From: Albula goreensis
Lineage: Eukaryota; Chordata; Actinopteri; Albuliformes; Albulidae
Length of the DNA: 64,000 nt
Direction of reading: 5' to 3'
Assembly (NCBI GenBank): GCA_022829145.1
Contig: CM040749.1
Coordinates: forward strand, 20,235,987-20,299,986
Shown: positions 1-62,200 of the stretch, one piece after another
Position numbering within the stretch: position 1 is the first letter of the stretch
How the letters are laid out: each line of letters starts with the position of its first letter
Notes under the pieces: model-generated
What the model saw: the letters and a program-made list of their open reading frames with translations, nothing else
Told to the model about the DNA's origin: nothing
Database searches by the model: none
Position numbers and translations under genes: made by a program

Positions 1-11023
<11,023 letters not shown>

Positions 11024-44468: not shown

Positions 44469-47074
44469 TCAAAGTTCATCCTTCTGACATCCCCCAGTAT
44501 AGATGACCCTCTCGAGGTCTGAGGGCTTCACCATCATCCAGGCATACTTGCAGAGATGCTCTTTATTGCAGTCCTTCTGCCAGTAGATGACATTTCGGCG
44601 GTTGAGATTAGCCCCCGCACAGGCATCGTACCACCACCCTCCTCCTGGCACACCCTGAAATTCAAGCTTGGCACAGTTCTGAAAGTAGTTGTCATTGTCA
44701 CGGTCCTTTGTGGTGAATTTCTGATTGTCATGAAGGTAATTCTCTGTGTCCAGGGAGAGAGCATCCACGGCTGTACCCTGGAAGAGGCCCAGGCGAAGCC
44801 GATATTGGGCTTCCTCATTCTCCACCAGGACTGGGTTGTATTCACCAAACTTGGTAATTGCATCCTTGTCCACCAGCTTGACCCCCAGTTTGTAGTGCCC
44901 TGGTCTGCTGGTGAGCTGATGGAGATATTCATTGCCCAGCCAGTGGTCACCGGTGAGGGTGCCAAAGCCCAACTTGTATTCAGTCCAGCTTCTGTCAAAG
45001 TCCACGCTGCTGTTGACAGTGATATGCTGCACCACGGTCCAGCCCCCTTCCTGCATGGAGCAATATGCCATAATGACAGAACCTGCTGGCTGGATCAGAT
45101 AGACCCCATCTCGTGCATGGCCACCAGAACTCTGCCAGATCTCATAGCAATCACCAGGGAACACTATGGGGCAACATGGAGACACTCACTATCTGTTTTC
45201 TGACTCTGATCACTTCTCATAAACAAGGAACGCATTATGACATGACAAACATTTTATTCATTAAGTCCTAATTGACAGCATACAGAAATCCCAGAATTCC
45301 CTATTTTTGAAAAAGATTTTATATTACTATCAAAAGTTTACATTTTTATCGTAACAGTATTAGCCAATATTTATCACAGGCCTAAAATGTTATTTTACTC
45401 AGAAAAGAACAGAAATTATGGCAAGTGATTTTTGGGAAGGATTTCAAAGCATGAAGTAATCATAATCACCCTGATTATCTGACTTGTGCCATCTGTCATG
45501 ATAACAATTTTTCACACAAATCGGTTTAGTCGTTTTTCAATAAGGCATGAGTTAGTTATTAGCCCCAGCTTTATGCAGGTTGAATTCCTAGTATTTCAGA
45601 ATCAAAACACTGCCCCCCAGTGTTATTGAAACAATTTACCTTTTTTCCCCCAATAACCTGAAGCAAACCACTATGGCACACTTACAACTGCAAATAATGG
45701 CAAAAATTCATAGGATTACTTCAAGCTTTAAGAGGGCTGAATATGCTGCCACCCAATGATATAGTTTATCTCAGGTCAATAAGAAGGACTTAAGAGCAAG
45801 ACAACACTTCCTGCTATTCTATTACATGTTATAATTATTTCAGGAGTATTAAAACAAATTTATAGAGAGAATTGGCAATTAAGTTGTGGTCTATGTGAGA
45901 AGCTGTTTAATTTTACATTCAAAATATGAGAATGAATATTTCTAAAACCACGCAATCAATGTCCTACAAACAATGTCGGACATTTAAATGGTGATGGTGG
46001 TCTATCAATTACTCAACAACACAGTATCCACTTATTTTAACATTATTTTAAAAAGTAATAAAATGCCTTAACACAATATGACAATTAATTATTCAGACCT
46101 GAGTCTAGTTCTGTAACTATGTACTACATCCTGTTTCAATGTATATAGTCTATAAAGACAATAAACAAGTCACATTAACAAAGCACTCTTATCAGCCGCT
46201 GTGCTGTACTCTGGGCCAGTAGTAAAATCAGTGGCTTACTAAACAGGGTTCAACCCTTCCCTTCCCACCACATAACTGTACAGGGAATGTGTAATATGTA
46301 GTCTGAAGTGTGACGTGTTTTTGACAAGTCATTTATTGTTCTAGATCCCTGGAGTTTGAACTGATTGCCTACTTCAGTATTCAAAACATTGCTGAGCATT
46401 TCTATCAGTGATGACAGTGAAGATAACCCATTTCACAGTTAAGCACTACTCAAAGCTATCATTCAAGTTTGGATGCCTGGATTTTGCTCCTTCAATACAT
46501 TAACCTCGAACGTATTCACAAACATAATTGGGCAAGACTGGTGTATTTACCCCCAGTTATAGAACAGCTTAGTTAAATTCTTGATTCTGTTTGTCTGAGA
46601 TACCATTGTGTTTTGATAACCTGTGGAGGAACAAAATAATGGATGGCTACAAATTGGCTCCAGCAATAGGGGGCTTATTGATGTTCCAAATCAGAACACA
46701 AGCCAATGAAGGAATCTATTTAGTACAAATAATGCAAAAAAGTTAATAACACAGTGCTACAACAATTTTGTTTCATTGTATTTAAAAGTTGAAATACTTA
46801 CTTTGCAAAAACAGTGGTATAAGCTTAATAAACCAATTTATTTCCTCGCGACTGTAAATCCCATGGTGTTATATTCCCCATGCTGGGATGGAAACATTAA
46901 CATAAATAAAAGCATAGATCCATACTTGCCTTCATTTTCCACATTTATCACCAGCTTGAACTCTTCAGGGGAAAGAATGTGAATGTTCTCTGCAGAGGGT
47001 AACTTGGCATGCATGCCAATCACACAGAAAATAGACAGCAACAGAGTCCCCAACCAGAACCCTGAATTCTCCAT
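44469..47074 (-). CDS. Secreted fibrinogen-domain protein (FGL1-like) ending in KDEL
   Basis: Two coding exons are proposed: 46930-47074 (48 codons plus 1 nt) and 44469-45163 (2 nt plus 230 codons and stop), giving 279 aa. Exon 1 supplies a signal peptide (MENSGFWLGTLLLSIFCVIG) and a short linker. Exon 2 holds the complete fibrinogen C-terminal domain: GDCYEIW, YCSMQEGGWTVVQ, DHWLGNEYLHQLT, the calcium-loop-like KDRDNDNYFQNCA, GGWWYDACAGANLN and WMMVKPSD. The tail continues about 14 residues past the usual domain end and finishes GGCQKDEL, an ER-retrieval signal. The domain part has seven cysteines, an odd number, and an N-glycosylation site (NSS). No coiled coil is seen. To stay in frame with exon 2 (acceptor CCATAG|TGTTCC), exon 1 must end GAAG|GCAAGT, a GC-type donor; a GT donor two bases on gives a stop unless an unseen exon intervenes. 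The nearest relatives I know are fibrinogen-like 1-type proteins of fish. Exon 2 is certain, the join less so. Confidence 0.8.
45164..46929 (-). other. Intron of the fibrinogen-domain gene
   Basis: A 1,766-bp AT-rich interval with no further exon that I can support. It is the proposed GC-AG intron: 5' end GCAAGTATGG, 3' end CCCCATAG. If a hidden exon exists it should lie here, entering in phase 2 and leaving in phase 1. Confidence 0.55.
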
Positions 47075-47241: not shown

Positions 47242-47622
47242 CAGTGGCAGCTGGTGAACTCAGAACAGGGGAGGAACAAACTTTACCTTTAAATGTATCA
47301 TAATGTTCAATACTTTCCCATTTATCCTCCTCGATTAACAACAAAACAAGTAATTCACGGAATAATCAACACCAATTGATGCAAATAGATAAAACACATC
47401 CATGGATATAACAAACATAACTCTAGTTTGCAAAGAACAGCAATTCTATTACAAAATGAAATTGATAACCATTTACTCTATTTACGTTGGCTGGTGTCAA
47501 TTACTCTGTGAATAATTTGTTTTATTGTTAATCGAGGAGGATAAATGGGAACAGGTTGAAAGTAATGATACGTTTAAAGGCAAAGTTTGTTCCTCCCATT
47601 TTGATCTCACCAGCCGCCACTG
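47242..47622. mobile_element. hAT-like fold-back MITE (381 bp)
   Basis: The left end starts CAGTGGCAGCTGGTGA and the right end, read in reverse complement, starts CAGTGGCGGCTGGTGA. Inverted similarity continues for about 150 bp (47242-47393 against 47472-47622), including GGAGGAACAAACTTT and CCCATTTATCCTCCTCG, around a loop of roughly 78 bp. The flanks GTGTGGAC (47234-47241) and GGGTGGAC (47623-47630) form an 8-bp target duplication with one difference. Ends of the CAGTGGC type and 8-bp duplications fit the hAT superfamily. There is no coding capacity. It lies in the 5' UTR intron of the fibrinogen-domain gene. Confidence 0.88.
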
Positions 47623-47874
47623 GGGTGGACCATTGTGTGTCCAACACCCCCTTTCCATTGGGGTTCATTTCCAAACACTTAACCTCAAACATTTATCCAA
47701 AGGATACCCATGGTAAATGGCAATAAGGTAACCTAAGCACAATTTTCCCCCATAAAAGATCATATTAATTTCAGTAACACCAGTATGCCAGAACAGACAG
47801 GTCAGCAGATAAACCTTTAACTAAAAAATATCTTGCTCCATGTAGAAAGATTAGCCTGTGAATAGAACTCATAC

Positions 47875-48060: not shown

Positions 48061-49496
48061 CTGGACTTCAGCCTCCTCTTCACGTCACTCCGGGACACGC
48101 CAAGGGTTAAAGCTTGCATTTATCTGTGTCAATTGGACTTGTTACTCACTTCACGCAAATCTTTCAGTGAACTGCCTTTCACCACAAGGAAAAATCTGAT
48201 TGGATTACAGCAGGCACACATATGACAACCTTTGCGCTTGTTGTAGTTACCCAATTAGTTTGTTTGAACAAAAGATTGCAGAATGTTTAACGGTTGTACT
48301 GTACACGAGGACTTAAATAATGTTTATGGGGTCTGAAAGCAATCTTCCCTTTGTGGAATACTCTATTGATTGATTGAATAAGTCTCATTCACAGTAAGAT
48401 AGCTTTAGATAATGGCCATGGACAGGAAGGTATTTTTTTTTTTTTAGAGCTTCACAGTCCAAATCCAAGCTGTTAACGAAGAACTAGAAAAGGCATTCCA
48501 ATGGCATTCAGGTCAGGACCCAATCAAATTAATTTAGTCTCTTTAAGTGCATATGCAATTCAAAATGGATGTAACTGTTGTAATGGCTTGTGGTACTCTA
48601 TGTTATAAGGACAAATGGTATTTCACCATGAAAACATCACACTATAAATGATGTTTTCTGATCTCCAACAAAATAGAAAACACCCATGGACATGCTATAA
48701 ATTAAGAATACCTAGATCGAATGTGCCCTATTTGATTCGGTTTCATTGGGTTCTGGTGTCAGAACTGTCTACTGTAATGTATCACAAATAGTATGTTGGC
48801 TGTATATCTTTAACAGAAATCTTTAGAAAAGTTACATGATATTGGAGATGTCAGCTGTATTCAAGAATACCAAAAGGAAATTAACAAGAAAAAGTGGATT
48901 GTAAGATGAAAGTGTATTACCTTTATTTAAATATTTAGCCCCCTCCTCCCCCATTAAAAACATTATTTCATTAATAGATATCTATCCCAATTCAGTCAAG
49001 TGGACCTTTCATAATATTAAGTTCTATAATCTCTCATTCAAGTATGTTCACTATGAGTACAGTCATATGGATTCCAGAAGCAGCATAAATAATAAATATA
49101 TACACAATACAGCAACAGCTACACAATGAACCACAAAAATGAAAGGCAATACCTTAATAAATCAACAGGTTCAACTGTTAATACATGCCTAACATGACTT
49201 GGAAACACAAATGGTAACAGAGGAAAAAATGTTCAATGTATCCACACAATCCAGAAAAAACAACATGAAAGCAGTGCCAAAGAGCTCACTGTATTTCTTC
49301 CAGTTTTCAGTTTTCCCAACTTTCCTCCCCAAAGAACAGAAACCCTGGCTCTCATAGCCTTGGAGAATCAGAGCAAAAATGAGGCAGGAAGCTACTGTAA
49401 AACTAGAGACTGATTTGAAAAAAAATGGAAGAATAACGCTGACAGTCACTCAGATGGTAAAGCTCCCACAGTGGCTTTTGGGGATAAAGTGCGTCA
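48061..49496 (-). other. Intergenic segment and emc7 3' UTR
   Basis: No gene is seen in 48061-48920. On the minus strand, AATAAA at 48922-48927 is the best poly(A) signal for emc7, giving a 3' UTR of roughly 570-590 bases from the stop at 49497. An 11-T run lies near 48434-48444. Confidence 0.5.
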
Positions 49497-59283: not shown

Positions 59284-62200
59284 ATGGCATCTCTCTGGGC
59301 TCTGCTGGGACTGTGCTGTCTGGAAGCCCCAATGGTGTTCTCTGTTCCTCCAATTGAGTCCCAGCCAGAGCAGGTACATATATCTTATCCAGGTAAGGTT
59401 TCAGTCTCTTATTTTTGCTGTTATAGTTATTAGGGTAACAGAGATCAATCATTTCTAGGGTGAGTTGAAGCAGAAGCACCAAAACACGAACACTTTTCAA
59501 ATGCTCTTTGAAGGTTAAATTGCATCAGCGTTTGAGTGCTGCTCAGAACAAGTGACAGCATAGGGCTTGCAGTCTGACAGCAACCAAATAATTCTCAACA
59601 ATCTCCAAATTGCCTGAGTTGTATTCAAGCTATCAAAAAAGTGTTCTTGTTTTGTATCAATCCCAAATCAAGAAATCAATAAGAAGTGACTGAGGGTAAC
59701 ATGCCACAATAAAGGGGGCTCAAACTCTCAGATCTCTCCAAAATTAGATGATGCTATTTTGTAGCTCAGTATGGCTTTTTTTTCTAAGAAACCAGATATG
59801 TGTACTAAGCGGTAGATCGGCCGAGCCCCGGTAGACAATGTAAGCCTTAACCACATCTTAACACTTCAGTACTGTAGCCATCTGTGTATAGTTAACGCAA
59901 CTAGAATTTTTCTGAAATTCCTATCAGAGACCATGTGTGCATTGTAGCACATGTGCTCACTATTTGATGCTTAATGGCTCATAGATATGGATATATTTCC
60001 AATATCCAACTCCCCTGAAGCCTTATTTACCCACTGGGGAGAACAAAAAGGCTAGTGCGTGAGCCACTAATCCCTTTGGGCCTGTTCCATGGACAATTCA
60101 TGGGTTATGTAACTTACTCACTGAACATAAAATACAAAACTCTTTTTGTCTTCGATGTTTGTCTGCCTGCTGTGCAGGTGTTTGCACCAGATAATTGCAT
60201 CTGTCTTTACAGGGGTCACCCGCTCCATGGTGATTACCTGGACGACTTTCAACAAGACAGAGAGCTTGGTAGAGTACAGTATGTGGGGTGGAAAACTCTT
60301 TGATCTGAAGGCCAAGGGTACTAGCACCATTTTTGAGGACGGAGGGTCAGAAAAAAGAAAACTGTACATTCACCGTGTCACACTGTCGGACCTGAGACCT
60401 GGTTCTGCTTATGGTGAGTGTGTCCAGGTACAGATTAAGGCTACTTTGCAGCTTGCTTATGGCTCACCAGCTCCTGGAGCTGCCAAGCATAGAAGTATCC
60501 GGAAATCGAGGATTGAAATGGGGCTTGAAAGGGGCTTGTACTGAGCTGAGATGTATTTGCTGCCTGTGGGTGACGGCACAGCCAGGGCCCTTTGGATATG
60601 GTGCTTACATAACTCGTACACATGTGAGAACAAATGGATCACAGGCAGTCCTGAGAAGGGCCCAGGGCACTCAGCTCCCCATGCCTGATCCCATGCACCC
60701 ATCCACCCCATCCATATGCCAAAGTTAAGTGTTAGCTTAGTGGGGGTTCTGTTTTGTCTGGACTCTTTTTTGTGTGGTTCGTCGGGGGGGTTAATCCATT
60801 TCTCTTGGTTCTGTGTGCTCTGCCGTGGGATCGTTTCACATGGCTCAGGCTTATTAAATTCTGCCTTCCCTCAAAGTTTCTGTTTGCTTTTCTTATGAAA
60901 TGTTGGAGAAAACCTAGGAATGGTCAAAAGATTGCTATTGCCAGTGATTCATCTCCTTAGTAAATATTAATCACAGAATTGTGCCTCAGGGGTGTGACAT
61001 TCTTTATTCTTGAATACAGCTTAATCACAGCTTGGGTGTGTCTCCACTGGCTATCCTCAGTGTTAGGTATAATTGAAATCCAAGATTACCATCAGCTCAA
61101 ATAAATATTCCGCTTCCACCAATTTATCAAGTACTTACATAGGATTGCATAACTGTGAATATCCAGCATTCCATAATCTTTCTGAAGAATGGAAAGTGTC
61201 ATTATTTGCCAATATTTTTATAGTGGTTGTGTTGCATTTCTTGATGTCTGATAACGTCTCACCTTTGAGGCCATAAGCTACATTTAGTAGCAATTTCTGG
61301 TTCAGCCTGTTTTGGTGACTGCTCTTGTATGTGTGATTTTACCGCAGTCTATCACTGTGGAAGTGAAGCTGGCTGGAGTGACATCTTTTACTTCACTGCC
61401 CTGAATGAGAGCACTACCTGGAACCCTAGGTTTGCTCTGTTTGGGGACATGGGTAACGAGAATCCCCAGTCACTGGCAAGACTCCAGAAGGAGACCCAGA
61501 TTGGAATGTATGATGCCATCTTGCACATTGGTAAGGATGTAGGTGGTAGTGAATGAGTAGAGTTAATACTTTCTGTAGCATGAATGAGATGAGGGAATAT
61601 TTTTGTACAGAAAATTACTCATCTTTTCTGTCATTTATCAGTATAGAGAATGGTTTTATGTGTTCATTTGGAAGGTTGGGCAGGTACTGCAGTCATACCA
61701 ATATGGCTATAATTGTGCAAGTCATAATTAATAATGTGTAAGATATTTTCTTTTTGTTCCCCCATACTAAAAGCTAAATTGGCTAATCTAATACATTGTT
61801 GATGTGCATGGAAAATAATCTTGTCTTTTTTATTTTTCTAGGGGATTTTGCTTATGACATGGATGAGGTAATTTATCACCATTTTTTAACTTCCTCTTAA
61901 CTTCAAGATTACTCACCCAATAGACAGATGAGGCAGACTTATTAATATTTTCGATGATATTGGCAAAGCAGCATATATTTCATGGTAGATGTGACCCATG
62001 CCCTTGTGTGCTTATGAAAACACCATGGTTTACAAATAACTGCTATCATTAGTAGTTACACTATAACTACTGCAAACACAAATGTCAAATCGTTTGGCTT
62101 CCTTACACTAAGAATAGTAATGACACCTGAAAAGTGCAGTGATACAGATATAGTTATTCTTGTACTGTTACAAAATTATTTTTTAGAGATTAAATTACAT

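Follow-up and report, generated by a model that had tools for sequence, protein, structure and literature searches.

Fibrinogen-type domains are known as recognition modules of the blood, the matrix and the cell surface, and angiopoietins, ficolins, FIBCD1 and FGL1 are all extracellular or cell-surface proteins. Can a member of this family be held inside the secretory pathway as a resident of the endoplasmic reticulum (ER)? The question is raised by a gene in a stretch of 64,000 nucleotides of the Albula goreensis genome (C9:20235987-20299986, hereafter the window), whose last exon encodes a fibrinogen domain and runs into a stop codon directly after Lys-Asp-Glu-Leu.

44469..45163, minus strand: last exon, with the entire fibrinogen C-terminal domain, an apparently private tail, KDEL and the stop (PF00147 and frame reading)
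44472..44483, minus strand: KDEL codons AAG GAT GAA CTT, adjoining the TGA stop

From 45158 to 44469 the minus strand forms a single open frame of 229 codons, which ends with MMVKPSDLERVIYTGGCQKDEL and then TGA, and the exon as a whole terminates in KPSDLERVIYTGGCQKDEL-stop. The final codons read AAG GAT GAA CTT TGA, with K-D-E-L at 44483-44472 and the stop at 44471-44469; the extreme C-terminal [KHR]DEL of KDEL-retrieved residents is thus present. This KDEL-ended fibrinogen-domain sequence is real and unusual. Given the amino-acid composition of the protein itself, the probability of KDEL at its end is 2.1e-5, from which a chance of about 8e-4 follows that at least one among the 39 gene-like clusters with this domain in the genome would end so. 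Across tens of thousands of proteins, at 2e-5 each, chance would supply about one such end, and therefore the figure alone is no proof of use; the presence of a signal peptide and the length of the tail bring the odds in favour of the motif being used.

Upstream of the domain, the gene was modelled from reading frames and from splice scores obtained with a crude matrix of general consensus frequencies.

46930..47074, minus strand: first coding exon, with the ATG, the putative signal peptide (MENSGFWLGTLLLSIFCVIGMHA) and a short linker (frame and splice reading)
46551..46620, minus strand: possible small middle exon (GYQNTMVSQTNRIKNLTKLFYNW), uncertain (acceptor 6.7, donor 6.2, crude matrix)

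The ATG at 47074 starts MENSGFWLGTLLLSIFCVIGMHA-KLPS.... The donor of this first coding exon is of the GC type (AAG|GCAAGT, 46929; score 5.9) and leaves phase 1, the phase in which the last exon begins at 45163, and the two are in frame when spliced directly together. The acceptor at 45163 scored less than 3. The intron ahead of the last exon is of phase 1, and so are those that precede the domain of the FGL2-like and the FGA-like gene in this genome, with acceptors (1490 in L001 and 1505 in L002) picked by eye. The possible middle exon is open only if entered in phase 1, as checked by hand, and it is out of frame with the last exon as sequenced because it exits in phase 2. A run of five G at 46550-46554 overlaps its donor, and this run together with the wrong exit phase could mean that the length of the run is wrong, that the exon is spurious or that it goes unused. 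A micro-exon at 45492-45470, the sole candidate listed for mending the frame after the middle exon, has a weak acceptor (1.8) and was dropped. Farther upstream, a putative 5'UTR exon has its donor at 47874, with the acceptor before 47093, both read by eye; between it and the signal-peptide exon lies a MITE-like inverted repeat (47264-47602; arms of 131 bases, 80% complementary and 77 bases apart). The KDEL end is surer than the splicing proposed for the part before the last exon, and doubts about the gene model leave it untouched.

The hydrophobic core in the MENSGFWLGTLLLSIFCVIGMHA region reaches a Kyte-Doolittle maximum of 2.78 over 11 residues, and past residue 30 the maximum over 19 residues is 0.92, with no strongly hydrophobic stretch. 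Judged by hydropathy, this profile fits a protein that is soluble apart from a putative signal peptide, whose cleavage would be expected. In the last exon, Pfam PF00147 (Fibrinogen_C) matches residues 3-207 with an E-value of 7.8e-42 and 144 bits against a cut-off of 22, and in NCBIfam only a model for a bacterial GGGWT domain was matched, below threshold (23.5 bits; cut-off 30). An earlier note on this DNA had described a protein with a signal-peptide exon and a fibrinogen fold, whose last four codons are K-D-E-L; the Pfam match and the reading of 44483-44472 with the adjoining stop bear out the fold and the motif, and the ATG at 47074 with its hydrophobic core upstream of the domain exon fits the signal peptide.

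Within the fold, conserved and remodelled parts can be told apart.

44673..44705, minus strand: calcium-binding-type loop DRDNDNYFQNC, common to other fibrinogen domains (alignments)
44487..44570, minus strand: stretch from Cys197 to Cys224, with the extra cysteines 197, 203 and 224 (alignment)

Four of the seven cysteines of the domain exon (4, 33, 162 and 180) align with the canonical four, and these, together with the loop DRDNDN, to which we attribute a calcium-binding role, align with the FGL2-like and FGA-like proteins, as is proper to a member of the family. The remaining three (197, 203 and 224) are extra. Cys224 stands one residue before KDEL, and in 33 of 33 other C-terminal exons examined in the same genome the last 30 residues hold no cysteine at all. 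The cysteine count is odd, and one thiol would therefore be free or bound to a partner. The last loop, in its typical though not strictly defining full-length form (NLNG...GIxW...YSLK..MKIRP), is absent here: the segment from NLN to KP has 25 residues, compared with a median of 36 for the 25 measurable of the 33 other C-terminal exons, where four lengths (22-30 in L011, L026, L028 and L029, with the second LNG picked) were misread low and the other 21 are 34-44. Past KP the tail is 17 residues long, where the 29 measurable of the 33 have a median of 6 (range 1-23), and only two fibrinogen-gamma-like exons among these 29 have longer tails. The extended tail had been recognised earlier and stands, whereas the length given for it, about 14 residues, does not (17 past KP, 15 past KPSD). 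Taken together, a shortened last loop, two extra cysteines and a 17-residue tail, in which the third extra cysteine and KDEL lie, make up a protein end that appears to be private, because none of 29 other genome matches, the best-scoring candidates, passes residue 192 of 229.

The same remodelling bears on ligand binding. The acetyl-ligand pocket of fibrinogen-domain lectins is located at the His after the fourth canonical Cys and at the aromatic loop that follows. Here, DACAGANLN has an alanine where NCHTSNLN of the exons L010/L011, which we take to be FIBCD1-like, has the histidine, and the next loop is shortened; the His and aromatic pocket loop of acetyl-group lectins (of ficolin, FIBCD1 or techylectin type) is thus lacking. 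The acetyl-ligand pocket looks lost from the alignment and the calcium loop kept, and a ficolin-type lectin role is unlikely because of the replaced His and the shortened loop at the place of that pocket. The earlier suggestion of a lectin is weakened accordingly.

How far this gene stands apart was examined in the window's own genome (932 Mb, 208 contigs). A search of the whole genome with PF00147 gave 125 exon matches, which were grouped by eye into the KDEL gene and 38 other gene-like clusters. The C-termini of 34 other fibrinogen-domain sequences of this genome were read, and none of them ends in DEL; they comprise 31 C-terminal exons read to the stop, two full-domain exons and one last exon picked by motif; the scripted test covered 33 of them, and the 34th ends in RTHS. 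The last exons of clusters L040-L043 were sought and not located, and these clusters stand outside the count of 34. The best-scoring genome matches to the protein are FGL2-like (41% identity) and FGA-like (44%), and locally, identity is higher in some of the short exon matches (up to 56%). In the window, tblastn found no second copy (other matches had E-values of at least 1.4). By these searches the gene would be a divergent member of the fibrinogen-domain family, of which the genome yielded no further copy. Searches of other contigs with exact 8-residue patterns taken from this one protein, by which only close relatives are detectable, gave one stretch in viral contigs and five in bacterial and archaeal genome contigs, none of them confirmed by tblastn. 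As a separate observation, two C-terminal exons, L036 (C18) and L037 (C23), which we take to be fibrinogen-gamma-like, suggest a duplicated gene.

Among known proteins, the nearest in this genome are an FGL2-like protein (L001, presumably FGL2, fibrinogen-like protein 2) and a domain (L002) that we take to be the C-terminal domain of fibrinogen alpha-E. The former, the best-scoring paralogue (41%, 126 bits), is like the KDEL protein in having the whole domain in one exon after a phase-1 intron and is unlike it in ending ...MMIRPKNYAP, with a full last loop and no Cys in the last 30 residues. The latter (44%, 110 bits) likewise has a single-exon domain after a phase-1 intron; in contrast to the KDEL protein, it ends ...MKVRPLATM, with a longer loop and again no Cys in the last 30. 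Likeness to the domain of solved structures (angiopoietins, ficolins, FIBCD1, FGL1) is clear, with E-values of 1.3e-33 for angiopoietin-2 and 6.2e-29 for FGL1 among the best 60 of 68 matches. When only the last 90 residues were used as query, the best 60 of 70 matches to solved structures all ended by position 67, which corresponds to residue 206 of 229, and the five alignments examined stop at 47-52. The ER residents BiP, PDI and calreticulin differ from this protein in having other folds, and in that their residency is known by experiment, whereas here it is deduced. They resemble it in the C-terminal KDEL (PMC8248988) and in a signal peptide and solubility, both of which are predicted here. 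In the openly licensed literature of PubMed Central, none of the papers listed describes, by title and abstract start, a fibrinogen-domain protein with KDEL or ER retention; in two papers in which both sets of terms occur, the fibrinogen-domain and KDEL/ER-retention terms are unrelated (PMC8462739; PMC12871138). A lamprey lectin has been described as homologous to intelectins (PMC9682848).

The best reading of these data, and one that we regard as fairly probable, is that the product of the gene is soluble and that KDEL receptors retrieve it to the ER. A protein of about 29 kDa would enter the ER through its signal peptide, KDEL receptors would return it from the Golgi by means of the C-terminal KDEL, and its steady-state residence would be in the ER and early Golgi. 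We assume that this genome encodes a KDEL receptor, as those of other animals do. The behaviour of the signal itself has been described with reporters: mScarlet-KDEL is retrieved and the ADEL and DDEL forms are not, the residue at -4 carries the signal jointly with the three carboxylates that the last three residues provide, and specificity from sequence further upstream has no strong support (PMC8248988). The KDEL found here should be recognisable if exposed, because the signal sits in the last four residues (PMC8248988); exposure of the tail, in turn, is likely because of its 17 residues, against a median of 6 in the 29 measurable others, and recognition by the receptor could then follow. 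In the ER lumen, the protein would most likely act as a small calcium-binding accessory protein that binds partners through its remodelled domain end, possibly with the involvement of the odd cysteine Cys224, and it would not be a ficolin-type lectin. A more specific version, in which the ER lumen has acquired a fibrinogen-type domain as a resident quality-control or assembly factor, with its ligand loop cut back, an unpaired cysteine before KDEL holding partners by mixed disulphides and KDEL-receptor cycling returning the cargo in the manner of ERp44, is speculative and, on balance, quite unlikely.

For retrieval, the KDEL exactly at the stop, the signal peptide and the lack of a further strongly hydrophobic stretch fit. 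Against it, the ending may be private to the species, and to our knowledge all other members of the fibrinogen-domain family are extracellular or cell-surface proteins. The extracellular relatives, together with the similarly named plasma proteins (two proteins called fibrinogen-like protein 1-like in a green-turtle plasma table; PMC8084024) and the weak acceptor at 45163, weigh on the same side. The KDEL could accordingly be fortuitous or masked in a protein that is secreted like its relatives, its last four residues having arisen in a drifting, species-private tail. The variation of fibrinogen-domain tails in sequence and length (1-23 residues past RP in the 29 measurable), the single KDEL end that chance would give in tens of thousands of proteins and the plasma proteins just mentioned would be in keeping with such an origin, which we nevertheless judge unlikely in view of the figure of about 8e-4 for the 39 clusters, and given that a long-tailed, signal-bearing soluble protein is where the motif would work (PMC8248988).

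Retrieval and secretion need not be opposed, in that the protein could stay in the ER under resting conditions and leave the cell upon calcium depletion, ER stress or saturation of the receptor. Depletion of ER calcium has been reported to free reporters with ER-retention tails (PMC8276033), some ER residents are described as occurring outside cells too (PMC9326092), and a protein with the similar name fibrinogen-like protein 1-like is tabled with HYOU1-like, DNAJB11-like and TXNDC5-like proteins in the liver of trout after bacterial challenge (PMC6167799). The sequence upstream of the KDEL gene offers a further point.

48080..48087, minus strand: TGACGTGA, candidate UPR element, about 205 bases upstream of the putative 5'UTR donor at 47874

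This element, spotted by eye before the scan, matches what we take to be the XBP1/ATF6 UPR element; it is the only match in the window, where 0.78 such sites are expected by chance, and neither ERSE nor ERSE-II elements were found in the window. As support for an ER role, it would be a weak lead. KDEL is, moreover, the canonical signal, and the secreted AGR2 has the weaker KTEL (PMC9326092). With the expected number of UPR-type sites, this makes conditional release, though a serious rival, improbable as a separate reading; KDEL retrieval and its conditional-release form, taken together, are likely. Finally, the gene could be non-functional or misread, the last exon being a relic or the true transcript having another C-terminus. 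The out-of-frame middle exon and the acceptor at 45163 would agree with an error of this kind, but 229 open codons that preserve the calcium loop and all four canonical cysteines, and a first exon that joins in frame in the phase of the FGL2-like and FGA-like introns, make it very improbable.

If the KDEL works, a fold best known outside cells gains a resident inside the secretory pathway, whose possible clients could be, for example, other fibrinogen-domain proteins. A natural fibrinogen-domain member retrieved to the ER would point to the gene that lies, in this window, between chrm5-like and emc7-like genes.

40.6-42.2 kb, plus strand: rhodopsin-type receptor (PF00001)
49.5-52.6 kb, minus strand: further exons, without a Pfam match, presumably of an emc7-like gene of which one exon matches PF09430
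53.8-55.4 kb: putative katnbl1-like gene, further out (the scanned piece is without a Pfam match)
60131-60541, plus strand: purple acid phosphatase exon (PF16656)

The receptor is presumably chrm5, and we know of no human counterpart of a gene between chrm5 and emc7. In chicken, CHRM5, EMC7, KATNBL1 and AVEN occur in one interval of chromosome 5, and the list given for this interval, from which unnamed genes were perhaps omitted, holds no fibrinogen gene (PMC8469556). The chicken LOC428073 (fibrinogen-like protein 1-like) was considered and set aside, as it is placed with VPS36 and ATP7B on chromosome 1, a different neighbourhood (PMC4948856). Elsewhere in the window, an exon at 61269-61553, without a Pfam match, presumably belongs to the purple acid phosphatase gene (ACP7-like), and a long microsatellite of the (CA)n type lies at 4300-4600, where the frames read poly-TH or poly-CV.
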